Source: a virus
Virus record (IMG/VR): IMGVR_UViG_3300035010_000003
Coordinates: 1-28,791 of that record
DNA: 28,791 nt
Direction: 5' to 3' (one strand)
In this document: piece by piece, positions 6,078 through 23,326 of the stretch
Position numbering within the stretch: the first letter of the stretch is position 1
How the letters are laid out: each line of letters begins with the position of its first letter
Notes under the pieces: generated by a model
Seen by the model: only the letters and a program-made list of their open reading frames with translations
Told to the model about the DNA's origin: nothing
The model's database searches: none
Program-made: the position numbers and the translations under genes

Positions 6078-6154
6078 GCGCCCGTAGCTCAGCTGGATAG
6101 AGCGTTGCCCTCCGAAGGCAGAGGTCACAGGTTCGAATCCTGTCGGGTGCGCCA
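6078..6154 (+). tRNA. tRNA-Arg (anticodon CCG), with CCA encoded
   Basis: A 77-nt cloverleaf can be drawn by eye: acceptor GCGCCCG/CGGGTGC, D arm GCTC...GAGC, anticodon stem TTGCC/GGCAG, loop CTCCGAA with anticodon CCG (reads CGG), T arm ACAGG/CCTGT with TTCGAAT loop, discriminator G and CCA. Two stem pairs are wobbles: G3-U70 in the acceptor and T-G at the end of the anticodon stem. The gene is the integration target of the element to its right. The half from about 6110 onward was probably supplied by the element, and the ancestral 3' half is stranded at 23282-23326. Confidence 0.97.
6110..6154 (+). repeat. attL: integration site inside tRNA-Arg
   Basis: These 45 bases of the tRNA 3' half match 23282-23326 at 41 positions. 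The first 11 bases (CTCCGAAGGCA, anticodon loop and 3' stem) are identical and are the likeliest crossover region. The four differences lie downstream of this core (6121, 6131, 6140, 6148). Confidence 0.85.
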
Positions 6155-6201
6155 ACAAAACCAAGGGTTTGCCGAAGTCCCTGAAAAATCGGCGATTCAC
6201 C

Positions 6202-6220
6202 ACTCACCAAATACTCACCA
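6202..6220 (+). repeat. Left-end copy of a 19-bp block, candidate integrase arm sites
   Basis: The block consists of two direct copies of ACTCACCA separated by AAT. An identical 19-bp block lies at 23133-23151 near the right end in the same orientation. A weaker unit (ATTCACC) lies just to the left at 6195-6201. Arm-type binding sites of tyrosine integrases typically appear as such short direct repeats flanking the core. Confidence 0.65.
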
Positions 6221-6230
6221 GCAGCGCCGA

Positions 6231-7925
6231 TCAGACGAACAGGAAGCCATTCGGGCGAAGCCGCTCGTATGGTGACGGCGCATTGTCCTTCGTCAGCATC
6301 CGGCCCATCGCCATGATCAGCGCCACCGGGCCGTCGATCTTGTTTTCCGGGCGCTCTTTCCGGGGATAGACGTTATCCTTCGCGTCGGGCTTGGCGACGA
6401 CATTCGACAGCATCCACGTCATCGCCGGATCGCCATCGTGAGCGATCTTGCGCGAGCGGATCAGCCCTTCGACTTCCTTCAGCGGCTCCGACATGGTGTT
6501 GACGATTTGCCGGTACTCGACGCAAGGCACGCCATGCCCGGATAGTTCGGTCATGAGCATGGTGGCCTGCCACGGATCGAAGGCCACTTCCTCAATCTGG
6601 AACTTGCTGGACAGGTCGAGGATGTCATCGCGGATGCGGCCGAAATCGATCATGTCGCCATCGGTGACGATCAGCCGGCCTTCGGTTGCCCAGGTCTGAT
6701 AGTGCTGGTTTTCGCCCAACTCGACGGTCTTCTCCGGCAGATACCAACGGCCAAATGAGACGAAGCCGCCGCCCTCGCGCCGGAACAGGATCACCATTGC
6801 GGCGATGTCCACCTTCGACGCCAGGTCGAGGGCGATGATGCATCGCTGCCCGGCAAAGTCATCGATCTTCATTTCCGGCACGGCGGATTCGTGCCAGCGC
6901 TGGATATTGAAATAGGCTTCGCGGGCCTGCACCCACTCGTTGAGGTGCTTTGTCTTGAACGCCGACACCTTGCGGGCGTTGTTCACCGCGTCCCGCTGCG
7001 CTCGCAACAGGAAGTCGGCCTTCACCGAAACCTCATAGTTCGGATTGGCCTTGATCAGCGCGGCTTCGGTCGTCCAGTCGTCGCCGGGATCGATGCCGTA
7101 CATGAGGGCGAACAACTCGTCTTCCTCGACCACGCCTTCAAGCACCCGGCGAGCCTCGACTACCGCCGCGTAGCAAGGGCCGGAGACGTTCGCGCCGGCC
7201 GTCGTGATAATGAGCTGCAACGGCTGTTCCCGCGCACCCATGCCGGTTTCCATGCTCGACACCTGATCGTCGGTGTCGTGCTCGTGATACTCGTCGTGGA
7301 TCGCGCAATGCGGCGAGCTGCCATCGCCGGGACGGCCGACGATCGGTTCGAAGCGACTTTCGTTGCCGAGCACATGCAGGTTCGAAGCGTTCACTGTCAG
7401 GCCGACAGCCGAGCACAGTTGCGGCGAGCGCAGCGCCATGATGCGCGCCGGCCGGAAGACTTCCCATGCCTGCCGCTCATTGGTCGCGCCGGAATAGACT
7501 TCCGCACCATGCTCGCCGTCGAAGGTGAGCATGTAGAGACCGATCGCCGCCGCCCAGGCCGACTTGCCGTTCTTTCTCGGCTCCAGGATCAGAGCCTTGC
7601 GGAAGCGACGATAGCCGTCCGATTTCCGCAGCCATCCGAACAGGCACACCGTCTTGAAGCACTGCCAAGGTTCAAGCTTCAGCTTCTCGCCGGCCGATGC
7701 CCATTTGCCCTTGGTGTGCGGCAACAGCTCGATGAACCGGCATACCCGTTCGGCCTTCTCGGTATCGAACCGGAAGGGATATGCTCGCGCCTTCGACTTC
7801 TTCAGGTCATCAAGGTGCCGCTGGCACGCCAGGCGCACCCACTTGTTCGCCGGTTTGGTGCCGGCGACGACAGCGCGCGCGTAGCGGTTCGCCGCGTCAA
7901 CATGCGGGTGTTTGTCGGCTGCCAT
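6231..7925 (-). CDS. Phage terminase large subunit (Terminase_1 family)
   Basis: This 564-residue protein would be the packaging motor that pumps DNA through the portal and cuts it. The ATPase domain carries a Walker-A-like loop in LEPRKNGKSAWAAA (about residues 113-126), a Walker B acidic pair in CAIHDEYHE, and a coupling motif LIITTAGAN. The nuclease domain shows its metal-binding aspartates in IIALDLASKVD and EVAFDPWQA. Length and motif order match the HK97-type family. The gene lies four bases after the small terminase gene and is the last gene of the head operon, next to the left end of the element. It appears intact, so the element could package DNA without a helper terminase. Confidence 0.93.
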   Translation of the reverse strand: MAADKHPHVDAANRYARAVVAGTKPANKWVRLACQRHLDDLKKSKARAYPFRFDTEKAERVCRFIELLPHTKGKWASAGEKLKLEPWQCFKTVCLFGWLRKSDGYRRFRKALILEPRKNGKSAWAAAIGLYMLTFDGEHGAEVYSGATNERQAWEVFRPARIMALRSPQLCSAVGLTVNASNLHVLGNESRFEPIVGRPGDGSSPHCAIHDEYHEHDTDDQVSSMETGMGAREQPLQLIITTAGANVSGPCYAAVVEARRVLEGVVEEDELFALMYGIDPGDDWTTEAALIKANPNYEVSVKADFLLRAQRDAVNNARKVSAFKTKHLNEWVQAREAYFNIQRWHESAVPEMKIDDFAGQRCIIALDLASKVDIAAMVILFRREGGGFVSFGRWYLPEKTVELGENQHYQTWATEGRLIVTDGDMIDFGRIRDDILDLSSKFQIEEVAFDPWQATMLMTELSGHGVPCVEYRQIVNTMSEPLKEVEGLIRSRKIAHDGDPAMTWMLSNVVAKPDAKDNVYPRKERPENKIDGPVALIMAMGRMLTKDNAPSPYERLRPNGFLFV

Positions 7926-7928
7926 CGA

Positions 7929-8411
7929 TCATCCCAGCAGCGCCTTGAAGGGGTTAGCCTCGGGTTTCTTGTTCGCCGACACCTTGGATCGCGCGGCCGG
8001 CGTCAATCCGAACTCGCCGAGCAGGGATTGCGCGTGCCGCATCGCCTCGCTGCGCTGGGCAACGGCCGGGTGTCCTTTGATTTGCTGACTCGTGACGCGC
8101 CCTTCGCCGTCATACTCGGCAGAGCTGACGAAGGTCCGGCCGCCATCTTCGATCACAGCGGTGCAGATTTCCACCTCCTCGAGGCGGGATGCCGCAAGCG
8201 CCAGCGCCGCCGTGTCGCTCGCCGACGCGATGCCCATTTCCTCGATGACGCTCACCAGGCCGGCGAAGATTTCCGCCGCGCGTGCCGAAAGCCAATCCGG
8301 CGGCACGGGAAGATCCGATGCAGCGACCGGCGCGTCGGCGTTCATCCGGCATGGCTGGGCCGTCCCGGCGACGATCTTCAGGTGATCGGGAATGCGTTTT
8401 CTACCGGCCAT
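7929..8411 (-). CDS. Phage terminase small subunit (P27 family)
   Basis: This 160-residue protein would recognise the element's packaging site and recruit the large terminase. The N terminus (MAGRKRIPDHLKIVAGTAQP) is a hallmark of the P27 family, as is the middle helical part with SDTAALALAASRLEEVE. I chose the ATG at 8411 because AGGTGA lies six to seven bases upstream; a TTG one codon earlier is less likely. An element-specific small terminase is what would let a satellite package its own genome selectively. Confidence 0.9.
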   Translation of the reverse strand: MAGRKRIPDHLKIVAGTAQPCRMNADAPVAASDLPVPPDWLSARAAEIFAGLVSVIEEMGIASASDTAALALAASRLEEVEICTAVIEDGGRTFVSSAEYDGEGRVTSQQIKGHPAVAQRSEAMRHAQSLLGEFGLTPAARSKVSANKKPEANPFKALLG

Positions 8412-8501
8412 CAAAATTCACCTTCATTTTGCACGCGCACGAAGTTGACCCCCCAGCGGTCCCGACCCCCAGCATAGGCAAGCTCGAATGGCCCCCTGCC
8501 G
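8412..8501 (-). other. Intergenic segment between HNH and terS; candidate packaging (cos) region
   Basis: Read on the minus strand, this 90-bp gap in an otherwise overlapping array holds two direct copies of a G-run motif: GCTGGGGGTC (8464-8473) and GCTGGGGGGTC (8447-8457). A GC-rich stretch with GTGCGCGTGC follows just before the terS ribosome site. In HK97-like phages the cohesive-end site lies near the HNH and small-terminase genes. The assignment is by position and composition only. Confidence 0.35.
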
Positions 8502-8846
8502 TCATGGCCTTGCCTCACGGTCTCTGCCGAAGCCGCCTTCGGTCGCCACGGCCTTGCGGCTGTTGCAGGGCAGGCAGAGCGGTTGCCAGTTCGATCGATC
8601 CCAGAACAGGCGCATGTCGCCCTTGTGAGCGATGATGTGATCCACGACAGCGGAGGGATCACCACACCGACGACAGGTCCGGTTCATGGCGAGGAACGCC
8701 TTTGCCTCGACATCCCATTCGCGGGTGTAGCCGCGCTGCCTTGCGTTCGGTCGCCGGGCTTCACTGGCGAGGGCGCACAACGGGCATCGGCTGCCTCGAT
8801 AGGGCGGGTGGCCGGCCGGGCAATGACGTGGTGCTGACCAGGGCAT
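8502..8846 (-). CDS. HNH endonuclease of the packaging module
   Basis: This 114-residue protein contains the HNH core with two zinc-binding CxxC pairs: CRRCGDPSAVVDHIIAHKG, then NWQPLCLPCNSRKA. A first Cys/His-rich part (HCPAGHPPYRGSRCPLC) precedes it. In HK97-like phages and in cf-PICIs, an HNH protein encoded next to the terminase genes is needed for cutting at the cos site together with the large terminase. Its place directly before the small and large terminase genes supports that role. The ATG at 8846 lies three bases after the stop of the upstream gene, implying translational coupling. Confidence 0.9.
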   Translation of the reverse strand: MPWSAPRHCPAGHPPYRGSRCPLCALASEARRPNARQRGYTREWDVEAKAFLAMNRTCRRCGDPSAVVDHIIAHKGDMRLFWDRSNWQPLCLPCNSRKAVATEGGFGRDREARP

Positions 8847-8849
8847 CGC

Positions 8850-9242
8850 CTATCCGATCACGCTTAGTTCGATGCGAATGCACCCACCGGCGTCGAAGAC
8901 AGGTGCGACACGCTGCACCGCCTTCGTCGCACCGCGAAGGATGACGCTATCGCTGGTCGTCGGGATGCGCGGATCGCTGGGAATGATCAGGCCGCCTGTC
9001 GCGGCTGGGGTGCGACCACCAGGCCACTGCGCACGGATGATGTGCGTCGGGCTGATGATGATGAAGAAGTTCTGTTGCGTGATCGAACCGATGAGCTGCT
9101 CGACGGTGAGCGCGCGCACGATCGCGGGGATGACGCAATCGACGTTCGATCCCGTGCTTCCGGCATTGGTGCGCTTGCGAAGGATGATGTCCTCGCCACG
9201 CTGTTCTAGTCGCCGGTCGAGCTGCGCAAGAAGCTGGTTCAC
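8850..9242 (-). CDS. Hypothetical head module protein, possible head-tail joining factor
   Basis: This 130-residue protein starts with GTG in a four-base GTGA overlap with the upstream gene. The N terminus (MNQLLAQLDRRLEQRGEDIILRKR) is helical and basic, and the rest is predicted mainly beta (for example SITQQNFFIIISPTHI and DSVILRGATKAVQRVAPVF). I do not recognise the family with certainty. Size, beta-rich body and position between the gp6-like connector and the HNH gene fit head-completion or stopper proteins of HK97-like phages. If the element uses helper tails, this is one of the two best candidates for the adaptor that contacts the foreign tail. Confidence 0.7.
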   Translation of the reverse strand: MNQLLAQLDRRLEQRGEDIILRKRTNAGSTGSNVDCVIPAIVRALTVEQLIGSITQQNFFIIISPTHIIRAQWPGGRTPAATGGLIIPSDPRIPTTSDSVILRGATKAVQRVAPVFDAGGCIRIELSVIG

Positions 9243-9649
9243 CGGACACTCACCTTCACGCTCATGATGGTGTTGGCATAGGTGCCGGTGCTGGTGAGCT
9301 TCACCCGCATAGCCGAGCCGAGCACGCCATCCTTCACGGTGTCGTCAGCCATTGCGCCGTCGCTTGGGGCGAAGGCCGTAGTGACCGGCGTCAGGCCGGA
9401 CAGGTTCACCACCTTGATCGCGCTCGCGGTCGTGAAGGCGAAGCACGCGATGTCCATCCACGTCTGCCCGTCATCGATCGTGACTTGCACCCATGCCTTC
9501 AGGCTGGTGCCACCGGAGCCGTAGGACAGCTTCGCCTCGATGGTCGCGGCGAGGATGCCCTCAAGGTTCTGGATAGGCGTTTGGGCGATGCCCGTGAGCG
9601 CCGTGGTGACGGCGAGGTCGGCAAGGGAATAGTCCCCAGGGTTGAGCAT
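9239..9649 (-). CDS. Hypothetical head module protein
   Basis: The product has 136 residues, starting MLNPGDYSLADLAVTTALTG. The middle reads as a beta-sandwich-like segment (LKAWVQVTIDDGQTWMDIACFAF, split by a DDG turn), and the end as VKLTSTGTYANTIMSVKVSVR. Similar small beta-rich proteins are encoded near capsid genes of HK97-like phages and are often annotated only as hypothetical. The reading frame remains open far upstream of 9649, but that part is a shadow of the connector gene; the ATG at 9649 gives a clean start five bases after the upstream stop. It overlaps the next gene by four bases. A role in head completion or tail adaptation is inferred from position. Confidence 0.75.
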   Translation of the reverse strand: MLNPGDYSLADLAVTTALTGIAQTPIQNLEGILAATIEAKLSYGSGGTSLKAWVQVTIDDGQTWMDIACFAFTTASAIKVVNLSGLTPVTTAFAPSDGAMADDTVKDGVLGSAMRVKLTSTGTYANTIMSVKVSVR

Positions 9650-9654: not shown

Positions 9655-10266
9655 TTATCCCAGGTTCACGTTGCGATAGGGCGAGAGAAGGCTTTCCACG
9701 TCCGGCGGAAGGCGCGAGACGGTGCCGCTGAAATAGTCGGTCGAGCCGGCACCCTCGACGGTTTCGCTTCGGATCAGCGGATCGCGGGTGCGGGCGAACC
9801 AGCTTCCCTTCACCAGCGAAAGCGCGGCGCGCTCGATATCGTTGGGCAGGGTCCGGGAGGGCCGGCCGGGCAACACATAGCCCGCGCTGTACTCGACCAC
9901 GATCCGGCCTGAAGGCCAGGACGTGCGACAGCCGCTCGCGTCGATCCTGAAAAGATGTCCGCTGTCTTCGGCCTCGACGTTGGCGATATCTTCCGCCGTG
10001 CCGTTGATGGTCACGGCCGTAATGGCGACGACAGGCCAGCGCGCCAACATGAGCGACTTGCCCGGCTTGTCGGGATAGATGGATTCCCGGACGGTCTCGA
10101 CGGCGAAGACGCGCTTGCACCAGGACCGCACCGCATCGCTGGCCTGATCGATCAGCGTGGCGAGATAGGCATCATCCGCACCGCTCGTCACCTGCAGCTC
10201 GGCCTTTGCCGCCGCGAGCGTCGTGAGCTTCGTCTCGGCTGCCGCCGCAATGGTCGTCAGTGCCAT
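9655..10266 (-). CDS. Head-tail connector protein (HK97 gp6-like)
   Basis: This 203-residue protein would form the ring under the portal that closes the filled head and receives the tail. The N-terminal part (LTTLAAAKAELQVTSGADDAYLATLIDQASDAV, read as three helices) is the gp6-like signature, and a beta-rich body follows with WPVVAITAVTINGT. It is about twice the length of minimal gp6, as in many alphaproteobacterial versions. The ATG at 10266 is chosen for its AGGA ribosome site seven bases upstream; the open frame further upstream overlaps a strong hairpin and is not convincing coding sequence. It begins a sub-block that runs without gaps to the HNH gene. Confidence 0.87.
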   Translation of the reverse strand: MALTTIAAAAETKLTTLAAAKAELQVTSGADDAYLATLIDQASDAVRSWCKRVFAVETVRESIYPDKPGKSLMLARWPVVAITAVTINGTAEDIANVEAEDSGHLFRIDASGCRTSWPSGRIVVEYSAGYVLPGRPSRTLPNDIERAALSLVKGSWFARTRDPLIRSETVEGAGSTDYFSGTVSRLPPDVESLLSPYRNVNLG

Positions 10267-10288
10267 GTTCGATCCTCGAAAAGGGAAG

Positions 10289-10319
10289 CGGCACGGCCAA
10301 CATCCCGCTGGCCGTGCCG
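10289..10319 (-). terminator. Perfect 11-bp hairpin between capsid-block genes
   Basis: The arms CGGCACGGCCA (10289-10299) and TGGCCGTGCCG (10309-10319) pair fully around a 9-nt loop. Read on the minus strand it is followed by CTTCCCTTTT, so it may end or attenuate transcription after the capsid genes, lowering expression of the connector and terminase genes. The surrounding gap (10267-10504) shows no convincing gene. An mRNA-processing or stabilising role is the alternative. Confidence 0.6.
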
Positions 10320-10504
10320 ATGGACTTGCCTTGCCCGGCTGTCCGGTGAGCCCTTGGCCGCGCGAAAGTTCACGGCTGGTGCTCGCGATCTTTGCCACCT
10401 TGAACCCACACTTCGACCGCGCGAGCGGCGGGGCGGCAGGCAGGTGACTTTCCGTTGTTGGACCGACCGCAAGGTGCCCTCAATGAACGCCGCCCCTGAA
10501 GCCA

Positions 10505-10894
10505 CTACGCGACGGGCGCGGTGAGCGGATGGCCCTTCACGGCGACGGCGCCAGCGGCGATAGACGTGCCGCTGTTCTTCGTCGCCACGATGCGGGCGTA
10601 TCGCTTGCTGCCGATGTAGCCGACCTTGAAGCTGCCATCGGCCGTCAGGGGATTGACCAGCGTCGAGCCGATCACCGTTGCAGCCGGCGCGGCGGTGAAA
10701 TCGCCGTCCGTCGTGGTGTCGCTTTCCTCGACGGTGACGGTGAAGTTGCCGGAGCTGGCAATCGCGCCGGTGTTGATGACGAACATCACGCTTTCGAAGC
10801 CCAGGAGGTCGATCGCGGTGCCCTTGATGGTTGCCGCCTGCACGGCCGGCGAAAGCGCGAGGGCAACGCCGAGATTGTGAACGAGGTCACGCAT
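10505..10894 (-). CDS. Hypothetical protein after the capsid gene, possible head decoration
   Basis: This 129-residue, Thr/Ala/Gly-rich, beta-strand-rich protein starts MRDLVHNLGVALALSPAVQAATI and contains FTVTVEESDTTTDGDFTA and KRYARIVATKNSGTSIAAGA. The ATG at 10894 has AAGGA eight bases upstream. It is encoded immediately after the major capsid protein, which is where HK97-like phages keep head decoration or minor head proteins. Such proteins bind the outside of the mature capsid. No motif proves the role, so the name is by position and composition. A 238-bp gap with a strong hairpin follows. Confidence 0.72.
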   Translation of the reverse strand: MRDLVHNLGVALALSPAVQAATIKGTAIDLLGFESVMFVINTGAIASSGNFTVTVEESDTTTDGDFTAAPAATVIGSTLVNPLTADGSFKVGYIGSKRYARIVATKNSGTSIAAGAVAVKGHPLTAPVA

Positions 10895-10921: not shown

Positions 10922-12106
10922 TTAGGACGTGGCGCACTTGATTTTCTTGATGGCTGCCGGCTGCACCACGGCACCGCCGACGCGGCGGGTGGCGTGGATG
11001 CGGGTGATGCCCTTGGTCGCCAGCAGGTACGGATTGACCAGCACCGACATGTCGAGGCGGTCCACGATGCGATAGCCGGTCGCGATGTCGCCGAAGGCGA
11101 TCGGCGTGGTGCCGCTGCCGACATCATCCATGTCCGGCACCTCGACCACCGGCCGGCCCAGGATCGTTTCGGGCTGTCCGGCCGCATAGGAAGGCTGCCA
11201 GAGATAGACGCCGGTCGTGCCGTCCTTCAGCTTCCTGATCGCCGCCAGCGTCGAGCCGTTCATGAGCCAGGTGCCGCGCGAGCGATACGCCGCCGGCAGG
11301 CTGTACATGTGCGTGATCAGAAGATCGGCCGGCGCGGAACCGAGCGTCGAGGCGTTGCCGGTCGGGGTGTAGCCGACGCCGGATGCGGACAGGATGCCTT
11401 CCGGCGCGAGCGGGCCGATGCCCGACACGAAGGCCAAGCCTTCCTTCTGTCCGAAGTCTTCGGCGAGCGCCATGCGGACTTCAGCTTCGGCGGTGCCGCC
11501 ACTGTCGGCGAGCAACTGGTTGCTGATGTCCACGAAGGTCGAGAGGTTGCGCGCCGGGATGTCCACCTGCCCGAACGGGACGGTGCTTTCCGCCTGATCG
11601 TCGGTTTCGCCTTCCCACTGCGCATTGGTCACGCCGGTGCGGCGCGGATACTTGACGCTGGGCGAAACAATCTGCCGCACGGTCGCCAGCGAACGGATCG
11701 GCGAGAACTCCACCAGGTCGCGGATGAACTCGGTGCTGATCTCTGCCGGGGCGAGGTAGCCGCCCTGCGGGTCGTTGGACACGGTGAGCGCGCGCAGGGA
11801 GACTTCGCCGGCCGCATTGCCCAGGCGCAGGTAGGTGCCGAATGCCTGCCGGCGTTCTGCCGCTTCGGCGTCAGTCGTCTCGGTCCCGTTTCCGGGCCGC
11901 TGGGTGCGAACGTCGATCGCGTCGAGCCGCTGGGTGAGAGACCGCATCTCGGTCGTCACGCGCTCATCGATCGCGGTGCGGTGCTGATCGACGGCAGTGC
12001 GCAGCTCGCCGACAGCCTGCACGGCCGCCGCGATGTCATCGCCGCCTTCGTCGCGGGTTTCGATCGGCTCGGCCGAACGGGTTTCAAGGGGCAGGGTATG
12101 CTTCAT
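10922..12106 (-). CDS. Major capsid protein (HK97 family)
   Basis: This 394-residue protein has an N-terminal scaffolding delta domain predicted as coiled coil (DIAAAVQAVGELRTAVDQHRT and onward to about residue 65), followed by the HK97 fold. Family landmarks are the E-loop/P-domain segments around SNDPQGGYLAPAEISTEFIRDLVEFSPIR, the A-domain part RGTWLMNGSTLAAIRKLKD and the C-terminal DMSVLVNPYLLATKGITRIHATRRVGGAVV. The prohead protease encoded just upstream would remove the delta domain, probably near the Arg-rich segment before residue 110. Start and upstream stop overlap as ATGA. The length is normal, so the element can build its own shell. Capsids smaller than the helper's are expected for a 17-kb genome, but size cannot be read from sequence. 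Confidence 0.95.
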   Translation of the reverse strand: MKHTLPLETRSAEPIETRDEGGDDIAAAVQAVGELRTAVDQHRTAIDERVTTEMRSLTQRLDAIDVRTQRPGNGTETTDAEAAERRQAFGTYLRLGNAAGEVSLRALTVSNDPQGGYLAPAEISTEFIRDLVEFSPIRSLATVRQIVSPSVKYPRRTGVTNAQWEGETDDQAESTVPFGQVDIPARNLSTFVDISNQLLADSGGTAEAEVRMALAEDFGQKEGLAFVSGIGPLAPEGILSASGVGYTPTGNASTLGSAPADLLITHMYSLPAAYRSRGTWLMNGSTLAAIRKLKDGTTGVYLWQPSYAAGQPETILGRPVVEVPDMDDVGSGTTPIAFGDIATGYRIVDRLDMSVLVNPYLLATKGITRIHATRRVGGAVVQPAAIKKIKCATS

Positions 12107-12651
12107 TTCAGGGTTCCTTTTATGGAGAGCGCGGCGCGGCGGGCCGCCTCAATGAATGCCGCGACGCTGGCCTGATCGGCCGCGCCCTTCACACTGGTGA
12201 TCCTCGCCTTCGACGCCGCCGGCAGCGAAACGAGGCTGATCTCGACAAGCTCGATATCGGTGAGCACGCGGCCACCGTTCGGCCCGCGTTCTGCCGATCG
12301 CGCCCGGAAGCCGATCGACAAACCGTTGACGGCACCGGCCTTCAGCAAGGCGAGCGCTTCCGCGCCCTTGGCGGTTTCGGTGACAAGCCTGCCCGCCACC
12401 TTCAGGCCGCGCTCATCCTCGACAAGTTCGGTCCACACGCCGATCGGCTGATTGCTGTCGTGATTCCAGAACATCGACGGCCCGCCGGTGGCCTTGCGCT
12501 CGCGGAGCGTCTTGCGGAAGGCACCGCGTTTCACGGTGTCGCCATAGGAATCCGCTTCGCCGAAGATGCTGGCGTACCCGGTGAAGGTGCCCGCATCGTC
12601 GGTGGCGAACCGGACTTCGGTCGCGGCGAGCGTGATGGTCTCGCGCTTCAT
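12103..12651 (-). CDS. Prohead protease (HK97 family, S78)
   Basis: This 182-residue serine protease matures the capsid by cutting off scaffolding regions. The catalytic residues can be placed: His64 in FWNHDSNQPIG, Ser112 in VNGLSIGFRA and Glu137 in LTDIELVEISLVSLPA. The start (MKRETITLAATEVRFATDDAGTFTGYASIFG) is typical of the family. It overlaps the portal gene upstream and the capsid gene downstream by four bases each (ATGA), so portal, protease and capsid are translationally coupled. All key residues are present; nothing suggests decay. Confidence 0.95.
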   Translation of the reverse strand: MKRETITLAATEVRFATDDAGTFTGYASIFGEADSYGDTVKRGAFRKTLRERKATGGPSMFWNHDSNQPIGVWTELVEDERGLKVAGRLVTETAKGAEALALLKAGAVNGLSIGFRARSAERGPNGGRVLTDIELVEISLVSLPAASKARITSVKGAADQASVAAFIEAARRAALSIKGTLK

Positions 12652-13989: not shown

Positions 13990-14292
13990 TTACGCTGCCC
14001 TTGCTCGGCTGCCGAAGACTTCGGCCCAGGCCAGCGATTCGGCATCTTGCCGAGACATGCCGCCGTCATATTCCATGATCGCAGCGCGCTCTTCGAATGC
14101 GTCGATCAGGTCGCTTTCATGCACGGTGACGCTGTTTGGCAGTGCTACAGGTGCTACAAGTGCTACACGACTGTTTTCATTGGTGTTTTCCTGTAGCACC
14201 TGCCCAGGTGCTACGGTGCTACAGGTGCTACAAGCCGGTGATACAACACCGACGCGGCTGGCGAAGGCGGCGAAGCGGGACAGGTCAGGCAT
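13990..14292 (-). CDS. Small protein carrying an iteron array in its coding sequence
   Basis: The product is about 100 residues from the ATG at 14292, which overlaps the stop of the helicase gene by eight bases (ATGCCTGA). The N terminus is MPDLSRFAAFASRVGVV. The middle (CSTCSTVAPGQVL, then VALVAPVALP) is simply the translation of the 9-bp DNA repeats and is low complexity. The C terminus (EERAAIMEYDGGMSRQDAESLAWAEV) is a motif I know from small proteins encoded near primase-helicase genes in alphaproteobacterial mobile elements. Function is unknown. The DNA under this gene may matter more than the protein, because it holds one of the two iteron clusters. Confidence 0.7.
   Translation of the reverse strand: MPDLSRFAAFASRVGVVSPACSTCSTVAPGQVLQENTNENSRVALVAPVALPNSVTVHESDLIDAFEERAAIMEYDGGMSRQDAESLAWAEVFGSRARAA
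14142..14248. repeat. Iteron cluster 1 (9-bp TGTAGCACC family), candidate replication site
   Basis: Perfect GTGCTAC cores start at 14142, 14151, 14160, 14208, 14216 and 14225. An inverted core lies at 14193-14199 and a variant GTGATAC at 14238. The first three are head-to-tail at 9-bp spacing. The inverted copy and the next direct copy form a 10-bp perfect palindrome (14193-14202 with 14205-14214). A T-rich 22-nt stretch (14169-14190) separates the triplet from the palindrome. One isolated copy lies outside at 14326-14334. On the minus strand the layout matches cluster 2. Confidence 0.85.
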
Positions 14293-15622: not shown

Positions 15623-16865
15623 TGGTCTCTCCGAAGTTTTCGTTCAAGCCGATGTAGAAGCGGCTCTGCCAGCCGATGCGGCTCACGCATCGCGCCTTCT
15701 GATCGGGGCGAGCCGTCGAGATGTATTCGTGCAGCGCTTCCTTCGCGAAGCGGCTGGGCGCGATCTCGACGCCAAGGGACAGGAGCCTTTCGCGATACGT
15801 GGTGCCGTCGCCGGCCAACATGGACATGGGCATGGCCCATTCCTTCACGCGGCCGTCGCGGTCGGTGATCCGAAGCAACCGGCCCCATTCCTCGCCGTCG
15901 CCGCTGCGGGTCTCGGCACCCACCTCCAAGAGCGAACAGAACCACTTCCATTCGACGGTGACGGTGCCGGTCTCTTTGTCCACGCGCTCGATGCGCTTCT
16001 CGACGCCGTTGGTGATGATGCGGAACGGCCAGCGTGTCAGCTCTTCCGGCTCGCCGGCCTCGACGCGGCGAAGCGTCTCGCGCTCTTCGGCATCGCGATA
16101 GGGCGGCAGGAAGGCCGGGTCGCTCTTCAGCGCGGCGACGGCATCGGCGGTCCATCCGTCATCGATCGCGTCGGCGATATCCCAGCCCTTCGGAATGATG
16201 CCGTCGCGAAGGTGCTTCCCGCCTTCCTTCCACACCCATGAGCCGAGCCGATCGGGCGGAAGATGCAGGACGGCCGTCGCGCCGGCAGCGCGGACCAGTT
16301 CGCACACCTTGTCGCCGAATTGCTGCCCGGCTTCGTCATTGTCGGTGGCGATGATCACGGTGCGGCCGGCGACTGGCGTCCAGTCGGCCTTATGCGGCGA
16401 CTTCGCGCCATGCGGCGGCGTGGTCGCTACCATGTCGGGGAAGAGGATCGCGGCAGCGTCGGCGGACTTCTCTCCCTCGGCGACGATCAGCACCGCGTCG
16501 AGGCGCGCGGTGATATCCGGCAGGCTGTAGAGCGGACGCGGGCCGGCGATGCCCTTGGCGCGCCAGGCGCGGCGTCCCTTGCCGATATCGCAGAACGTCA
16601 GCGGCAGGATGTCCTTCGCCGGCTTGCCGTCGCCGTCGAGGAAGTCGAAGCGCGCCACGGTGAACATGAGCTGGTCGAGCGCATCGGTGTAGCGCCACAC
16701 CTTCGACGGCGCGCCATGCTTCGGGTGCCGGTAGGTTTCTGGCGACGGGGCATCGGTCGGCACCGGCACGATCGGCAACTTGTCGGCAGGCTGGGCAGTC
16801 GTGGCATCCACGGCCGCGATCTCATCGGGCGACAGCGGTGCGAACATTGCGGTGCCGTGCATCAT
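15615..16865 (-). CDS. TOPRIM primase-like protein with N-terminal part of DUF927
   Basis: This 416-residue protein has an Asp/Glu TOPRIM core: VLIVAEGEKSADAAA (Glu130, Glu132) and TVIIATDNDEAGQQF (Asp175, Asp177), as in DnaG-like and phage primases. From about residue 300 it enters DUF927 (WAMPMSMLAGDGTTYRERLLSLG, then ARCVSRIGW) and stops at NENFGETNG. The ATG at 16865 overlaps the upstream stop as ATGA; the open frame further upstream is a shadow. It would synthesise primers, or organise priming, at the element's origin together with its two neighbours. The zinc-binding module normally fused at the N terminus is encoded by the gene upstream and the ATPase half by the gene downstream. Confidence 0.88.
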   Translation of the reverse strand: MMHGTAMFAPLSPDEIAAVDATTAQPADKLPIVPVPTDAPSPETYRHPKHGAPSKVWRYTDALDQLMFTVARFDFLDGDGKPAKDILPLTFCDIGKGRRAWRAKGIAGPRPLYSLPDITARLDAVLIVAEGEKSADAAAILFPDMVATTPPHGAKSPHKADWTPVAGRTVIIATDNDEAGQQFGDKVCELVRAAGATAVLHLPPDRLGSWVWKEGGKHLRDGIIPKGWDIADAIDDGWTADAVAALKSDPAFLPPYRDAEERETLRRVEAGEPEELTRWPFRIITNGVEKRIERVDKETGTVTVEWKWFCSLLEVGAETRSGDGEEWGRLLRITDRDGRVKEWAMPMSMLAGDGTTYRERLLSLGVEIAPSRFAKEALHEYISTARPDQKARCVSRIGWQSRFYIGLNENFGETNG

Positions 16866-17149
16866 TTCACCCCCAGCATGTCGGCGAGGGCACGGGCGGC
16901 TTCGGCCTGTCCGGTTCCTGCAAGATAGGCAGCAAGGCTGATCGGATCGCCGCCAGCGTCGTCGGTGGCGAAGTCGGCCCATTTGCCGGTGTTCATGTTC
17001 ACCCGGAACGATCCGGGCTTGCGGTCGCTACGGCGTGGATTCCGGCACACCCATTCGTGGCCGACGCGACGGCCATCGGGCAGCCACCGGCCCAGGAGCG
17101 ACGGCAGGACGGCGAGCGAGGCGGAATTGATCTTGTCGAAGTCGATCAT
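16862..17149 (-). CDS. Small primase zinc-finger-like module
   Basis: This 95-residue protein matches, by eye, the N-terminal domain of phage and satellite primases: an LGRWLPDGRRVGHEWVCRNP start, then DRKPGSFRVN, GKWADFA and GGDPISLAAYLAG. Those motifs (NP-x-RxD, GSF-x-V, GxWxDFA, GGD) occur just before the TOPRIM domain in single-chain primases. Only one cysteine is left, so the metal site seems lost or replaced, as in several family members. It is coupled by ATGA overlaps to the genes on both sides. Most likely it is a separately encoded DNA-recognition part of the three-piece primase-helicase. Confidence 0.75.
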   Translation of the reverse strand: MIDFDKINSASLAVLPSLLGRWLPDGRRVGHEWVCRNPRRSDRKPGSFRVNMNTGKWADFATDDAGGDPISLAAYLAGTGQAEAARALADMLGVK

Positions 17150-18036
17150 GCAGCGCCTCCCGTGATCTCGGCGAGGCGGTCGAAGTAGTCACGCGCGGAC
17201 TGTTCCTCGACCTTGGCGACGGCGAGCGCGCGCTCCGGCAAGAGGCTTTCGATGTTGGTCCGCAACAGATTGCGCAGGATGCCGGCCGGCATGGCTTCGG
17301 CTTCGACCGTCTCGCGGATATGCAGGGCGCGGCGATCGGTGTCCTTCCTCGGCTTCGCCGGGAGGTCGAGCACGTCTATCTGTTCGGACGTGATGGCGAT
17401 GCGGTTGAAGTGAAGGTCGATGCCGGCGGTCAGGTGCTCGCGCAGCTCGCGTTCGAGCGCCACGTCGATCAGGACGCCGGCCGGGTCGTAGTCGCCGATG
17501 TAGTAGATCACCACCGGCCTGCCGGCCGCGTAGTAATTGATCGTCTCGGCGGACTGGTAGGCGAGCGTGATGCTCGAAAAGCCGCCGGCCGGATACAAGC
17601 TCACCGCCAGCTCGCGGCAGTCGTTTTCGATTACACCCGCGATCGAACGGCTTTCGGTCCACACCTCGCAATAGAAGTCGGCCTGTTGCCACAGGTCGGC
17701 GCGGTAGTGTTCCTTCATGCTGCGCAGGAAGTCGGCTTCGTCGCGATATGTCGGGGTGTGGTAGCCGCGCCGCGTGGCGTCCGTCACCCATCCGAACGGC
17801 AGCCGCTTCGCCCGACGAAGCTTCACCATGCGGTCCTGCACATGGCGGTATCCGCGATCGGTCTTTTCCACCGGCTCCGGCAGACGCGGATTCGTCATCC
17901 GATAGAAGACGTGCCGCACGCTCTGCGGATGATCCTCACGCAAGACGGCAAGGATTTGCTCGTCAAGCTGATCGATCCGCGCGTTGGTGCGCCTCTCGCG
18001 TTTTAGCGTGCCCGCACGATAAACCATGTCCGGCAC
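17146..18036 (-). CDS. Topoisomerase VI subunit A-like TOPRIM protein
   Basis: The product has about 296 residues. The N-terminal part looks like a winged-helix CAP domain with SVRHVFYRMTNP (Tyr45 in the place of the Spo11/TopoVI-A catalytic tyrosine). A TOPRIM domain follows with an acidic residue in CEVWTESRSIAGVI (about residues 122-135) and the metal-binding pair in YYIGDYDPAG (Asp181, Asp183). Family knowledge: such proteins bind and may cut double-stranded DNA; relatives include TopoVI-A, Spo11 and Wadjet JetD. No topoVI-B-like ATPase is encoded nearby. A role at the element's origin, in resolution or in defence is possible. GTG at 18036 is the first start; the ATG at 18027 has a better-placed AGG. 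Confidence 0.75.
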   Translation of the reverse strand: MPDMVYRAGTLKRERRTNARIDQLDEQILAVLREDHPQSVRHVFYRMTNPRLPEPVEKTDRGYRHVQDRMVKLRRAKRLPFGWVTDATRRGYHTPTYRDEADFLRSMKEHYRADLWQQADFYCEVWTESRSIAGVIENDCRELAVSLYPAGGFSSITLAYQSAETINYYAAGRPVVIYYIGDYDPAGVLIDVALERELREHLTAGIDLHFNRIAITSEQIDVLDLPAKPRKDTDRRALHIRETVEAEAMPAGILRNLLRTNIESLLPERALAVAKVEEQSARDYFDRLAEITGGAA

Positions 18037-18318
18037 CTATTCGTCGCTGGTGCTGGCCTTGGTCTCGCCGAGCTTTTCGAGCGCCCAGGTATCCAGATCG
18101 TCCCGGTGATAGAGCGCCGAGCGATTGAACTTCTGGAAGCGCGGCCCGCCGCCGACCGACCGATACTTGTCCAAGGTGCGCATCGCGACGGTGAGACCGT
18201 GGATGGCGGCGAGGTAGGCCGACGCCTCATCCGAGCGATAACGGACCTTGGCGCGAAGGGCAGGCGGAAGACGCACCTCTCCCGTGGCGGGTCCAGCCCG
18301 CAAAATTTCGGTATCCAT
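18037..18318 (-). CDS. Small helix-turn-helix protein (AlpA/excisionase-like)
   Basis: The product is 93 residues with an ATG supported by AAGGAA seven bases upstream. The central part (YRSDEASAYLAAIHGLTVAMRTLDKYRSVGGGPRFQKFNRSALYHRDDLDTWALEKLG, given here as landmarks only: SDEASAYL, GGGPRF and YHRDDLDTWA) has the shape of the MerR/AlpA winged helix with its wing GGGPRFQKF. Proteins of this class act as activators or excision factors in P4-like satellites and PICIs, where AlpA switches on the integrase or the satellite program. Here it precedes the replication genes directly, so it may activate them. Confidence 0.78.
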   Translation of the reverse strand: MDTEILRAGPATGEVRLPPALRAKVRYRSDEASAYLAAIHGLTVAMRTLDKYRSVGGGPRFQKFNRSALYHRDDLDTWALEKLGETKASTSDE

Positions 18319-18334: not shown

Positions 18335-19147
18335 CTAGCTCGCGGGCACTTCATCGATGTGAAGCAAGCGCCGGAGGGCAATCCTCAGCGCGAGGCTTGC
18401 GTTGATCGTCAGCAACGAAGTCGGATTCTCATATGCTTGGCCGGCAGCTTCTCCATCTTTCTCTGTCGCGGCCTTCATGCGGAAGGTCAGCGTCTTGGGG
18501 TTTTCAGTCGTGTCGAAGGTTCCGAAGGGCATCGGGGAATGATCTCCGATGCCTTTGACGCTCAGGTGCAGGACACCATCTTTGCCCAGCTCGCGGATGT
18601 GGTCGTACATGGAGTTGTCCCACCACACGAAATCCGTGAGGTCCGGCGTCAACTCTCCATAGGCGGCGTCGGGCTTGCCTACGCCGAGCAGGACATACTT
18701 CGAATCCACGATGCAGATGCGGAAGTCGTCGTCTTCGGCCGTTGGCTGGTGAGCGGGATCGAACCAGGTCGCGCGGTTGTGCGGGAGCTTTCTCGGCTCG
18801 TACAGGCCGGTTTCGGGATCGAAGGTGCTCGCCGCGTCGTAGTAGACATCCCAGGGATCAACGATGTCGAAGATCAGGTCTTCGAGCATCATGGCGGCGT
18901 AGACGATCCGGCCGGCAACTCCGAGACTAAGGCCGGCCTTGGTGAGCGGGGCGGCGATGGCCGCGCGCTTCAGCATCGTGTCGGTGACAAGGCGCTGCGC
19001 CTTCGGGTTCGGCTGGGGCACGGCCTGAATGACGCCGAGCTTCAGCAACTCGCGCTGCGAGCGTTCCGAAAGGTCGGTGGCGCGCGTCACGTCGTCGGCC
19101 GTGAAGCGGCTCTGCCGATACCAGTGAAGGGTTTTCTCGTACTCCAT
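18335..19147 (-). CDS. MerR-like HTH protein with unknown C-terminal domain
   Basis: The product has about 270 residues from the ATG at 19147 (MEYEKTLHWY), which has GGGAG a few bases upstream. A longer form from the ATG at 19234 would overlap the upstream stop as ATGA and would translate the operator-like repeats as LLTDARQ twice; I prefer the shorter one. The N-terminal 90 residues (FTADDVTRATDLSERSQRELLKLGVI, then KAGLSLGVAGRIVYAAMM) follow the same pattern as the N terminus of the gene upstream. The remaining 180 residues, with aspartate- and tryptophan-rich stretches such as DPWDVYYDAAS and DFVWWDN, match no family I recognise. A regulator sensing something of the element or helper is a guess. 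Confidence 0.75.
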   Translation of the reverse strand: MEYEKTLHWYRQSRFTADDVTRATDLSERSQRELLKLGVIQAVPQPNPKAQRLVTDTMLKRAAIAAPLTKAGLSLGVAGRIVYAAMMLEDLIFDIVDPWDVYYDAASTFDPETGLYEPRKLPHNRATWFDPAHQPTAEDDDFRICIVDSKYVLLGVGKPDAAYGELTPDLTDFVWWDNSMYDHIRELGKDGVLHLSVKGIGDHSPMPFGTFDTTENPKTLTFRMKAATEKDGEAAGQAYENPTSLLTINASLALRIALRRLLHIDEVPAS

Positions 19148-19230: not shown

Positions 19231-19803
19231 TCATTCCTCGCCGGCCTCTTCGGACTTCGAAACCTCGAACCGGATAAGCGGCGGGCCGGCACGCTGGGCG
19301 ATCAGCTCGGCGAGCAAGTGGCAATCCATGATCGTGCAGTGCGAGGTCGAGCACTCGGCGAGACGCGCCTCGATGCCGTCGAGCGCGCCCCACCGTGAGA
19401 TGTCCGGCTTCCCAGTCTTGCCGTCCGTCATCATCACCAGGAACCGGCCGCGAGCGCCGACAATGCTGGAACCGATGATGCGGTCTTTCATCTCATCGGT
19501 GACATCCTCGCCCTCGAAGACGGCCACGCCGGGGAGATCGTCCAGCGCCGCCAACGTCGGCAGAACGGCCATGCTGGCGAACTCGGCGACGTACTGGACA
19601 GAGAAGCCGGCGTCGGAAAACGACTTCATCACCGACATTTCGATGACATCGGTCAGGGTGAACTTCGTCCACTTGCCCGACTTGTTCTCCGGCAGGATGC
19701 CGCGCCGACGCCAATCACGCTGAAGCGCCACCGCCACGCCGGTGATCTCGGCGGCTTCGGCTGGCGAGAACTCGCGATCGACGCGGTGGATGGTGATGGA
19801 CAT
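19231..19803 (-). CDS. MerR-like HTH regulator
   Basis: The product is 190 residues from the ATG at 19803, which has AAGGGG eight bases upstream; the in-frame codon at 19842 lies in the operator region and is not preferred. The N terminus (FSPAEAAEITGVAVALQRDWRRRGILPE, then KWTKFTLTDVIEMSVMKSFSDAGFSVQYV) has the MerR-type recognition helix, wing and second helix. The C-terminal part (FEGEDVTDEMKDRIIGSSIVGARGRFLVMM) is of unknown function. Its promoter contains repeated GTTAGAGCGTG sites, suggesting self-regulation. It is followed directly by a second regulator of similar N-terminal design. Confidence 0.78.
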   Translation of the reverse strand: MSITIHRVDREFSPAEAAEITGVAVALQRDWRRRGILPENKSGKWTKFTLTDVIEMSVMKSFSDAGFSVQYVAEFASMAVLPTLAALDDLPGVAVFEGEDVTDEMKDRIIGSSIVGARGRFLVMMTDGKTGKPDISRWGALDGIEARLAECSTSHCTIMDCHLLAELIAQRAGPPLIRFEVSKSEEAGEE

Positions 19804-19823
19804 GACGATGACCCCTTGATTCG

Positions 19824-19877
19824 TTAGCGTGAGACTTACCACGCTCTAACAAACCGTGTCAAGCCACACGCTCTAAC
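19824..19877 (-). promoter_or_regulatory. Promoter with repeated operator sites ahead of the MerR-like gene
   Basis: On the minus strand a perfect -35 TTGACA (19862-19857) is followed, 18 bases on, by TAAGTC (19838-19833) as a possible -10. Two identical 11-bp sites, GTTAGAGCGTG, lie upstream of the -35 (19877-19867) and inside the spacer (19850-19840). A similar but shorter site, in the opposite orientation (GTTAGCGTG, 19823-19831), follows the -10. Binding at the spacer copy would block RNA polymerase. Confidence 0.65.
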
Positions 19878-19881
19878 GCAA

Positions 19882-19913: not shown

Positions 19914-19936
19914 GAGGCGTTCGACGCGCGAGCGGA

Positions 19937-20224
19937 TCAAATGCCGTCGTCCGGCTCGCCCATCTCTGCCGGATCGTGTTCCCGGTCGTCGCGGCCGATG
20001 CTTGGCTCGTCGTCCGCGCCGTCTTCCAAGTTCTCATCGCCGCCCTTGTCGAGTACGCGGGCGATATGACCCTCCGGCCATGTGCCGGCCTCGCCGTCGA
20101 GGTCCGGCTCGTCGTCAGGGTTGCCGTCGATTTCGTCCAGCAAGGCGATCAGCGATTCGATCGTCGTGGCGATCGTGATGCGCATCTGCGGAGTGACGGC
20201 GAGGAAAGTGGTCTCGCGTGTCAT
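19937..20224 (-). CDS. Small acidic hypothetical protein
   Basis: The product is 95 residues from the ATG at 20224, overlapping the stop of the S24-like gene as ATGA. The first third (FLAVTPQMRITIATTIESLIALLDEID) forms a likely amphipathic helix; the rest is very rich in Asp, Glu and Gly, with DGADDEPSIGRDD as a recurring type of motif. Similar acidic DEPS-containing proteins are common in alphaproteobacterial prophages and islands, with unknown function. The charge is compatible with a DNA mimic or a protein-binding tail, but nothing proves it. Confidence 0.7.
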   Translation of the reverse strand: MTRETTFLAVTPQMRITIATTIESLIALLDEIDGNPDDEPDLDGEAGTWPEGHIARVLDKGGDENLEDGADDEPSIGRDDREHDPAEMGEPDDGI

Positions 20225-20706
20225 GCCCGGCGCTTCCTCTTCGGCGGGGCGACTTCGTCGTCGCTCACCATGTAGGTGCGAACATCGTCCGGCACCGGGC
20301 CAAGGCATTTGTGGATGCCCTGAAGCCCGGAGACACTGTAGGCGAGCTGCCGGCGCGGATTGAACATCTCCACGATGACGACGGGATCGACTTCGCTCTT
20401 CGGATGGCGATCGACGCCGAACTTCGCCCAGGGCGCTGGCGGCAGGACCAGGCGTTTCACGATCGCCTGATGCTCGCCCGGCTTCACCATGTCCGGCCGG
20501 CGGAACAGGATCACCATATCGCCGGGCTGGTAGGCTTCCGTGCGCGAGAACATGAGCTTGGTGCCGGTCTTGATGTGGGGGAGCATACAATCGCCCTCGA
20601 CAATCATGGCGTAGATGTCGGGCATTTCGTCGGGATGGATATTGAAAGTGATGCGCTTGTCGGCGGGCATAGCTTCGCCGGCTGCGCGAACAGCGGTGTT
20701 CGGCAT
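20221..20706 (-). CDS. S24/LexA-like protein without DNA-binding domain
   Basis: The product is 161 residues from the ATG at 20706, chosen because GGAG lies six bases upstream. It has the S24 peptidase core: YAMIVEGDCMLPHIKTGTK followed by PGDMVILF and HQAIVKRLVL. The usual catalytic serine of the GDSM motif is cysteine (Cys40), while the general-base lysine is kept (Lys84). The N-terminal HTH found in LexA and CI repressors is absent; a small HTH protein is encoded divergently 70 bases away. It could be a detached repressor sensor domain that works with the HTH protein, or a binding domain without cleavage activity. It is co-transcribed with the acidic small gene downstream. Confidence 0.8.
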   Translation of the reverse strand: MPNTAVRAAGEAMPADKRITFNIHPDEMPDIYAMIVEGDCMLPHIKTGTKLMFSRTEAYQPGDMVILFRRPDMVKPGEHQAIVKRLVLPPAPWAKFGVDRHPKSEVDPVVIVEMFNPRRQLAYSVSGLQGIHKCLGPVPDDVRTYMVSDDEVAPPKRKRRA

Positions 20707-20717
20707 GGGATTCTCCA

Positions 20718-20768
20718 TTGCAGGTAAGTTGCATTTTTGATATAACTCTGCACCAGAAGCGTAGTCAA
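20718..20768. promoter_or_regulatory. Divergent control region with facing promoters
   Basis: Leftward: -35 TTGACT (20768-20763), 18-bp spacer, -10 TATATC (20744-20739). Rightward: -35 TTGCAG (20718-20723), 17-bp spacer, -10 TATAAC (20741-20746). The two -10 boxes overlap on opposite strands, so the promoters exclude each other. Half-sites TTGCAT (20729) and ATGCAA (20777) flank the region. The layout is that of a lysis-lysogeny type switch. Confidence 0.55.
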
Positions 20769-20776
20769 CACTTTTA

Positions 20777-21031: not shown

Positions 21032-21035
21032 GGCC

Positions 21036-21425: not shown

Positions 21426-21438
21426 TAGGAGACCAACG

Positions 21439-21702: not shown

Positions 21703-21705
21703 CTT

Positions 21706-21796
21706 GTAGCACCTGTAGCACCTGCCAATTTCCGTGGTGCTACAGAACTTCGCCCTATCGTTTCAAGGCTGTAGCACCTGTATCACCTGTAGCACC
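21706..21796. repeat. Iteron cluster 2 (9-bp TGTAGCACC family), candidate replication site
   Basis: GTAGCAC cores lie at 21706, 21715, 21771 and 21789, an inverted copy (GTGCTAC) at 21737, and a variant GTATCAC at 21780. Spacing is 9 bp within each direct array. The order is direct copies, one inverted copy, a 24-nt spacer, three tandem direct copies. The gap between genes (21703-21821) is otherwise empty. The same variant core occurs in cluster 1. Confidence 0.85.
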
Positions 21797-21821
21797 GCCG
21801 GAATGTCGCCGCGCGCGCGGA

Positions 21822-23105
21822 TCACGCCTTCCGCTTCCGGTTCGGGAGCGCCACTACCTTGCCTTCGATGCCCGTCATCTGCCGGTGGATGTCATTGGCG
21901 ATCTTGTTAGCCGCTGCGATCAGAACGCTGTCGAGCTTGTGGATGTAGCGGGACGTGATCGAATGCCCGGCATGGCCGATCACCGCGCCGATGGTGTTTT
22001 CGGTGAAGCCCAGGTCGTCGCCGACGCTGGCGAAAGAATGCCGCAAGGTGTGCGAGGTGACGCCGGCCAATTCCGCCTTGGCGACGATCCGTTCCACCGC
22101 CGCGCCGAGCGAAGCATAGTGTCCCTTCGGAATCCGCACCGCCGGCAGCACATAGGGGTTGCCCTCGACGCGCTCGATCTTGTCCAGCACCTCGATCGCG
22201 CGCTTCGCCAGCGGCCGGATCGAAGCGCCGGTCTTGGTGTCGCCGAGCCGTAGCGCCTCGCCCTCGATATCGACTTCCGACCACTTCAGCGACTGCACCT
22301 CGCCGTAGCGGCAGCCGGTGAGCGCGATCAGCCATGTGCCGGCGATGGACTGCGGCAACATCATCTCGGCTTCAGCAGCCGCCAGGGCCTTGCCCAGCGC
22401 CCTATATTCCTTCGCGTCGAGCCGGCGCTCGCGCTTGTTGTCGGCCGGCCGCTTCACGCCGCGCGCCGGGTTGAATTGCAGCACGCCTTCCGACACCGCG
22501 TAGGACAGGATGCCGCCGAGCAAGCCGGCGGTGCGAGCTGCCGCGCCAGCGCCGCCTTCCACGATTGCACGACCGCGCTTCCGGTCGGTCTTCACGTCGG
22601 CTGCCGTCTTGCCGGCGGTTACGTCACGGATGAACCGGGCGATGTCCGATTGCTGAAGGTCGATCACCAGTTTGCGCCCCAGCAACGGCTTGATGTGCCG
22701 CTCGACGCGGCCGTGATCCGTGCCCAGCGTCGAAGCTTTCTTCGGCCGGCCGGCCTTGCCGATGATCAGCCCTTTCTCGGCAGCCTTCAGGTAGTTGTCG
22801 CACAGCTCGGCGACGGTGAGCGACTTCCGGCGCGTGGTGCGCTCTTCGGCCGGGTCTTCGCCGCGCACGGTGCTGCCCAGCGTGGCGACGGCGAGCTTGC
22901 GCGCCTCTTCGGTCGTGATCTTGCCGTGCCGGCCGATCGTCATCCGCCGCCGGACGCCATCGGTGTTCCGATAATCCACGAAATAGGTGCGGTTGCCGGT
23001 CGGCTGGATGTAGACGCCGAAGCCGGGGAAGTCGCTGCACCACACGCTGTATTGCTTCGCTTTCGGCGCGGCTGCCTCGACTATCGACTTCGTGAGCTTC
23101 GGCAC
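21822..23105 (-). CDS. Tyrosine integrase of the satellite element
   Basis: This 427-residue enzyme would integrate and excise the element at tRNA-Arg. The N-terminal arm-binding domain (DUF4102 type) is seen in CSDFPGFGVYIQPTGNRTYFVDYR and the GRHGKITTEEARKLA stretch. The catalytic residues can be placed: Arg266 (GCRYGEV), Lys291 (DTKTGA), His352 and Arg355 (SHTLRHSF), His378 (GHAGHS) and the nucleophile Tyr387 (SRYIHKLD). The start is GTG at 23105, with AGAGG eight bases upstream. It is encoded next to the right attachment site and reads away from it, as in most tRNA-targeting islands. All active-site residues are present, so the element may still be mobile. Confidence 0.95.
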   Translation of the reverse strand: MPKLTKSIVEAAAPKAKQYSVWCSDFPGFGVYIQPTGNRTYFVDYRNTDGVRRRMTIGRHGKITTEEARKLAVATLGSTVRGEDPAEERTTRRKSLTVAELCDNYLKAAEKGLIIGKAGRPKKASTLGTDHGRVERHIKPLLGRKLVIDLQQSDIARFIRDVTAGKTAADVKTDRKRGRAIVEGGAGAAARTAGLLGGILSYAVSEGVLQFNPARGVKRPADNKRERRLDAKEYRALGKALAAAEAEMMLPQSIAGTWLIALTGCRYGEVQSLKWSEVDIEGEALRLGDTKTGASIRPLAKRAIEVLDKIERVEGNPYVLPAVRIPKGHYASLGAAVERIVAKAELAGVTSHTLRHSFASVGDDLGFTENTIGAVIGHAGHSITSRYIHKLDSVLIAAANKIANDIHRQMTGIEGKVVALPNRKRKA

Positions 23106-23132
23106 GCCTCAAACCTCTGCCTTGGGAAAACA

Positions 23133-23151
23133 ACTCACCAAATACTCACCA
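23133..23151 (+). repeat. Right-end copy of the 19-bp block, candidate integrase arm sites
   Basis: The block is identical to 6202-6220 and in the same orientation: ACTCACCA twice with AAT between. It lies between the integrase start and the attachment core, 131 bases from the core. The rest of 23106-23281 shows no gene and would form the long arm of the attachment site. Confidence 0.65.
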
Positions 23152-23281
23152 CAAAATCGGAAAGTGGGGAAGACGCCAGAGTTGACGCGGAAAGTCGGAT
23201 CGGGCGAAAGTAACGTGTTTTCAGGCAGATAGTGACATCACGAATTTTCCGGTAAAGTGCCGAAAAGCCGCAACCAAAACT

Positions 23282-23326
23282 CTCCGAAGGCAAAGGTCAC
23301 ACGTTCGAATCGTGTCGGGCGCGCCA
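23282..23326 (+). repeat. attR: stranded 3' half of tRNA-Arg
   Basis: The segment runs from the anticodon loop to CCA and matches the 3' half of the tRNA at 6110-6154 except for four bases. It has no 5' half beside it and cannot fold as a tRNA. Its acceptor strand CGGGCGC and stem GGCAA pair perfectly with the 5' half of the tRNA at 6078, better than the half now attached there. The two T-arm differences compensate each other (ACACG/CGTGT). Confidence 0.88.

Follow-up and report, generated by a model that had tools for sequence, protein, structure and literature searches.

The window analysed here, the whole 28,791-base viral record IMGVR_UViG_3300035010_000003, carries between positions 6110 and 23326 an integrated element that is best explained as a capsid-forming phage satellite of an alphaproteobacterial lineage, working like the capsid-forming phage-inducible chromosomal islands (cf-PICIs), a reading to which we give a probability of about 0.86. 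The initial annotation had likewise favoured a satellite of this type over a deleted prophage, and the parts list, the size, the integration in a tRNA gene and the absence of tails do match cf-PICIs. Classical PICIs have no capsid genes of their own and hijack the capsid of a helper, whereas this element has its own capsid set. The cf-PICI satellites of Escherichia coli borrow tails from other phages and, since the element encodes a complete head and packaging set but no tails, it very probably does the same. This would place cf-PICI-like satellites, as a coherent tRNA-Arg lineage, in the Alphaproteobacteria, many of which are soil or marine species; that the lineage is new is, on the parts of the published sources covered here, a lead and not proof.

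Head and packaging genes

Genes were assigned from Pfam, PHROG and NCBIfam profile matches, which uphold the HK97-type portal, protease, capsid, connectors, HNH endonuclease, TerS and TerL proposed initially. The genes described here lie on the minus strand, and those of the head follow the order portal, protease, capsid, small beta-rich protein, adaptor, conserved protein, probable stopper, HNH, TerS and TerL, the last being at the end of the element, 76 bp from the tRNA. The HK97-type portal protein (12648..13871; Pfam 2e-82), the S78 prohead protease (12103..12651; Pfam 4e-32), the HK97-type major capsid protein (10922..12106; TIGR01554 8e-108, profile match 5e-84) and the Ad1, gp6-like head-tail adaptor (9655..10398; phrog_442 5e-37) are all readily recognized, as are the HNH endonuclease (8502..8846; Pfam 4e-7), the terminase small subunit TerS of the P27/Terminase_4 type (7929..8414; Pfam and PHROG 83, 1e-15) and the large subunit TerL (6231..7925; Pfam nuclease 6e-46, ATPase 9e-22). 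The product of 8850..9242 has no Pfam or PHROG match and is probably the head-closure (stopper) protein, its AlphaFold model (pLDDT 83.5) being matched by Foldseek to phage necks (8hdr, E-value 2e-4; gene transfer agent 6tba; the T1 stopper) at TM scores of only 0.45-0.52. The small beta-rich protein (10505..10894; phrog_5707), which belongs to a 98-protein family among the relatives, is a possible capsid decoration protein, with a weak fold match to the phage capsid chain 8cjz (TM 0.55). The conserved head-module protein without an assigned role (9239..9649) is 54-77% identical in four relatives (L207, L209, L210 and L213), with a ratio of nonsynonymous to synonymous substitution rates (dN/dS) of 0.16-0.18.

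The head genes are under purifying selection, dN/dS values against the relative L002 being 0.03 for TerL, 0.08 for the portal, 0.15 for the protease, 0.17 for the capsid and 0.18 for the adaptor. The catalytic residues of integrase, protease and terminase had been described as intact, and the motifs of the integrase (R, HxxR, Y), the protease (H, S), TerL (Walker A/B, Asp) and the HNH endonuclease, read by eye, do look so.

Absence of tail genes and the closest relatives

The absence of tail and lysis genes, claimed at the outset, was borne out. Among six-frame open reading frames (ORFs) of at least 40 amino acids in the window, none matched tail, neck-1, tail-terminator, tape-measure or chaperone families built from relatives, and no lysis gene was found in the element by Pfam or PHROG matches, which are the sole basis for that statement. 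Tailed close relatives had been named beforehand as the finding that would overturn a satellite, and no tail or lysis module lies beside the connector genes of the ten relatives L206-L215, of L136 or of the partial matches L002 and L052.

The relatives L206-L215 are viral contigs retrieved with the C-terminal half of the primase, which is 62-77% identical in them. They share the plan of the element and its head gene order, and show no match to any tail family; the syntenic tail-less relatives measure 14.5-17 kb, taken as the length of the contig or, where exact tRNA-Arg(CCG) repeats are present, as the distance between them. Islands at tRNA-Arg had been proposed as a check, and two were indeed found, in L214 and L215, where exact repeats of tRNA-Arg(CCG), of 47 and 49 bp, surround elements of 16.5 and 15.1 kb, respectively. 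The same tRNA is also present on L206 and L213, and thus adjoins the element in four of the ten. This common plan and the recurrence of the tRNA indicate, as judged from sequence comparison, that the element belongs to a lineage without tails that is linked to tRNA-Arg(CCG).

Insertion site and boundaries

The left 6 kb of the window is bacterial and encodes a glutamate synthase, HlyD and AcrB, followed by tRNA-Arg(CCG) (6078..6154, plus strand; ARAGORN). The 3' 45 nt of this tRNA (6110-6154) form the left attachment (att) site and are repeated at the right one (23282..23326) with 41 of 45 positions identical and four differences. A survey of 397 genomes from the order of the host of L002 yielded G368, the closest host relative found, with 92.6% nucleotide identity between the part of its AcrB gene that was fetched and that of the window. 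In G368, the site is empty: an uninterrupted tRNA-Arg(CCG) follows AcrB, its 5' part is that of the window tRNA, all four differences are confined to the 3' half, and its 3' 45 nt equal the right copy (45/45). The repeat and this identity put the boundaries of the element far beyond chance, upholding the initially annotated extent between tRNA-derived repeats, including its right end at 23326. The comparison also indicates that the element entered the tRNA gene, leaving the host's original end at the right and supplying a replacement at the left. Two of the differences exchange one T-stem base pair, as expected if the replacement end came from another tRNA.

The element thus delimited spans 17.2 kb between its att sites, which is satellite-sized. 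An extension beyond 23326 was ruled out by the G368 comparison; a serine recombinase and a TrwC-type relaxase (23297-28393) belong to a separate second mobile element that abuts the right att site. Serine recombinases related to this one (family f44) also abut tRNA ends beside the satellites L014, L075 and L097.

Terminase exchange with full phages

In a TerL tree, the element, L002, L052 and L136 form a clade nested within the TerLs of full-size phage contigs; of the other satellites, nearly all fall elsewhere, the long-branched L050 being the exception. TerS reaches 77-79% identity to its full-phage counterparts, and TerS and TerL reach about 78% identity to those of full phages of 31-67 kb. 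Capsid and portal are of the satellite type, and the junction with the phage-type TerS-TerL pair (6231-8414) falls at the HNH gene, in agreement with a report that nucleases mark exchange boundaries (PMC10448857). By these comparisons, the TerS-TerL pair is taken from full-phage lineages, and the exchange points to candidate helper partners. The genome of L002 has four further TerL genes.

The wider capsid family and its partial tails

A search with the capsid returned 133 loci, whose host, wherever named, is an alphaproteobacterium, and among which the order portal-protease-capsid-connector-HNH-TerS-TerL is preserved. Clean att pairs at a tRNA were seen in seven loci, with 16.2-17.9 kb between the two copies; the tRNAs are those for Pro, Lys, Gln, Trp, Asn (twice) and Arg. 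No capsid in named phage records is more than 60% identical to that of the element. Genes of the relatives were predicted with a simple home-made caller and then grouped into families, a procedure that diverged small tail proteins may escape.

A tape measure is encoded at 69 of the 101 loci whose sequence continues for 2.6 kb or more beyond TerL, and the full set of adaptor, stopper, neck, terminator, tail tube, chaperone and tape measure at 34, while at most 25, this element included, have only a head and adaptor, with or without a stopper. The last figure is an upper bound, L106 having a diverged tape measure and L111 and L113 tail-fibre-like genes. Of the gene families downstream of the tape measure, 19 were matched; they include tail chaperones, a distal tail protein (4/52) and minor tail proteins, and none was recognized as a hub, fibre or lysis family. 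Likewise, the PF13550 tail hub was found within 15 kb of none of 39 related capsid loci (35 genomes), the nearest being 17.5 and 24 kb away on the opposite strand; such hubs occur elsewhere in 33 of the 35 genomes, possibly in helpers or gene transfer agents (GTAs). These counts, together with the absence of hubs, indicate that tails are absent or partial throughout the family and were not lost once in this element. In the more distant relatives, tail-tube genes form part of elements that are likewise small and have no tail hub, and are not remnants of a full prophage.

Relatives that encode a tape measure may borrow just the tail tip. A broader picture, which we put forward tentatively and at slightly less than even odds, is that of a large alphaproteobacterial satellite family with graded takeover of the virion: head; head plus neck; and head, neck, tail tube, chaperone and tape measure, in some with a distal tail protein, but without a hub. 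The present element would stand at the head-only end, and members of the last group would depend on a helper only for the tail tip, host recognition and lysis. If true, their piracy would be intermediate between that of cf-PICIs and the independence of full phages. The family also lends itself to a graded comparison of the virion components that a satellite has to steal.

L011, L054, L080, L082 and about 65 more loci are integrated elements of 15-18 kb whose genes cover the head, neck, tail tube, chaperone and tape measure, and in which no hub, fibre or lysis gene was found. A family present in ten relatives (f24) was considered as Lambda tail-protein-I and dropped, having no Pfam support. Two related head modules occur in single genomes, as in L014/L017 (KB899087.1) and L024/L047 (NZ_JAUCYU010000007); L050 is also listed, and its TerL, f5 and adaptor genes are duplicated.

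Comparison with known systems

Terminase, protease, alpA, adaptors and Pri-Rep have been listed as cf-PICI signature genes (PMC10448857). The element has its own capsid, protease, portal, head-tail connectors, TerS, TerL and HNH endonuclease, together with an integrase and att sites; its Toprim/DUF927 protein is homologous to the DUF927 protein of E. coli EDL933 (3e-42) and corresponds to Pri-Rep, though in two genes. In EDL933 (NZ_CP008957), positions 1680329-1694760 encode an integrase, a small helix-turn-helix (HTH) regulator, a DUF927 primase, PerC, capsid, protease, portal, closure and connector proteins, HNH, TerS and TerL, in agreement with the description of the cf-PICI EcCIEDL933 (PMC11773190). 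Both this 14.4-kb element and ours have an integrase, a small HTH regulator (putative in ours), a DUF927 primase-helicase, their own capsid, protease, portal, adaptor and closure proteins, a terminal HNH-TerS-TerL block and no tail. Homology extends to TerL (35%), portal, capsid, protease, HNH and DUF927, and is real but distant, with only 25-42% identity in matched stretches. Unlike EcCIEDL933, in which the order is capsid-protease-portal, the present element runs portal-protease-capsid, has its primase divided between two genes, possesses a decoration-like gene and orf136 in addition, occupies a tRNA-Arg site, and carries TerS-TerL from full phages.

The Streptomyces satellites MulchRoom and MiniFlayer also have their own head and packaging genes, the tail of MulchRoom coming from its helper, but they differ in host phylum, virulent helpers and terminal repeats, and no significant homology to cf-PICIs was reported for them (PMC10690885). 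The RepA_N satellites of E. coli, which encode a capsid, a tape measure and a baseplate hub, are tRNA-linked and have partial structural sets, a parallel to our tail-tube relatives, but are without terminase, protease and adaptor genes (PMC10448857).

Alternative explanations and proposed life cycle

Several points weigh against a cf-PICI-like satellite. Small tail proteins diverged beyond the hidden Markov models used would have escaped the tail search; the small protein encoded by 18037-18318 reaches an HHalign probability of only 61% against the AlpA-like family f16, so that AlpA is not confidently identified; and the EDL933 segment fits EcCIEDL933 by gene content, not by a published coordinate. 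The terminase speaks for a full temperate phage now decaying after deletion of its tail and lysis genes, because TerS and TerL closely resemble those of full phages and TerL nests among them. Nevertheless, the portal, the protease, the capsid and HNH belong to the satellite type, the identical tail-less order recurs in ten relatives of diverged sequence, and selection on the genes is purifying. In addition, the immediate neighbour of TerL is the tRNA at the element's end and not a portal-tail operon, and the tail, lysis and hub genes expected of a complete temperate phage are lacking. We regard a decaying prophage as largely refuted and highly improbable. Only a shade less improbable is that the element is the same kind of satellite but immobile, trapped by the serine-recombinase/relaxase element that abuts its right att site or by loss of its helper; its integrase motifs and att sites look intact, however, selection is purifying, and similar neighbours stand beside other satellites.

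A GTA or host-domesticated head is the least probable of all. Among solved capsids, the nearest is the related HK97 capsid of the Rhodobacter capsulatus GTA (RcGTA; E-value 4e-42), whose stopper fold is also similar. RcGTA has a full tail and no integrase, whereas the element has an integrase and no tail, and GTA tail and baseplate genes are missing from its cluster. It also has att repeats and its own primase, the site is empty in the close host relative G368, and the family occupies varied tRNA sites in varied hosts.

As a cf-PICI-like satellite, the element would be released through its regulators upon growth of a helper phage, excise, replicate with its split primase-helicase and build its own small heads. 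Its TerS and TerL would package the 17-kb genome, probably by a cos-type mechanism with HNH, adaptor and stopper would close the heads, and helper tails would be attached, the helper also lysing the cell.

Integrase, regulators and replication genes

Integrase, switch genes and a primase-helicase had all been annotated initially and were recovered by profiles, except that the primase is not one gene but naturally split. The tyrosine integrase (21822..23105; Pfam 2e-14; dN/dS 0.26) is 52-66% identical in eight of the relatives L206-L215 and 36% in L207, L208 being truncated; an integrase pattern search of viral contigs returned nothing, a limit of that search given these homologues. A possible CI-like repressor (20221..20718; phrog_4 4e-4) and a MerR-type HTH regulator (19231..19842; Pfam 1.5e-7) are followed by a protein of no assigned function (18335..19147; 29% match in L210), the small putative HTH protein (18037..18318), possibly AlpA or an excisionase, with homologues in all nine syntenic relatives that span the region (of ten), and a phrog_6247 protein annotated as DNA topoisomerase (17146..18036; 7e-40). 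A small ORF with weak similarity to a primase N-terminus (16862..17149; phrog_510 0.004) is 70-80% identical in L207, L209, L210 and L215.

DUF927 is divided between an N-terminal, Toprim-like half that holds its start (15615..16982; Pfam) and a C-terminal half with the rest of the domain and the ATPase (14285..15622; Pfam 1e-54, phrog_1139 5e-78), the two ORFs overlapping by 8 nt (ATGGGTGA). The identical overlap occurs in seven relatives (L206, L208-L212 and L214, with one base changed in L208), L207 has separate ORFs with a 5-nt gap, and L213, L215 and L216 have a single fused gene, which rules out a frameshift mutation. In the overlapping pairs, GGAG precedes the second ATG by a few bases, and both halves are under purifying selection (dN/dS 0.12-0.19). 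Our reading is that the gene underwent a natural fission and that translation of the halves is coupled, with a programmed frameshift as an alternative. L052 is no example of the unsplit gene, its C-terminal half being unrelated. An alignment (A4) of the element's unassigned proteins and of genes located beyond TerL in head-only relatives includes members that match the PADLOC models RmrA/RmrT and PD-Lambda-2 and are perhaps defence cargo.

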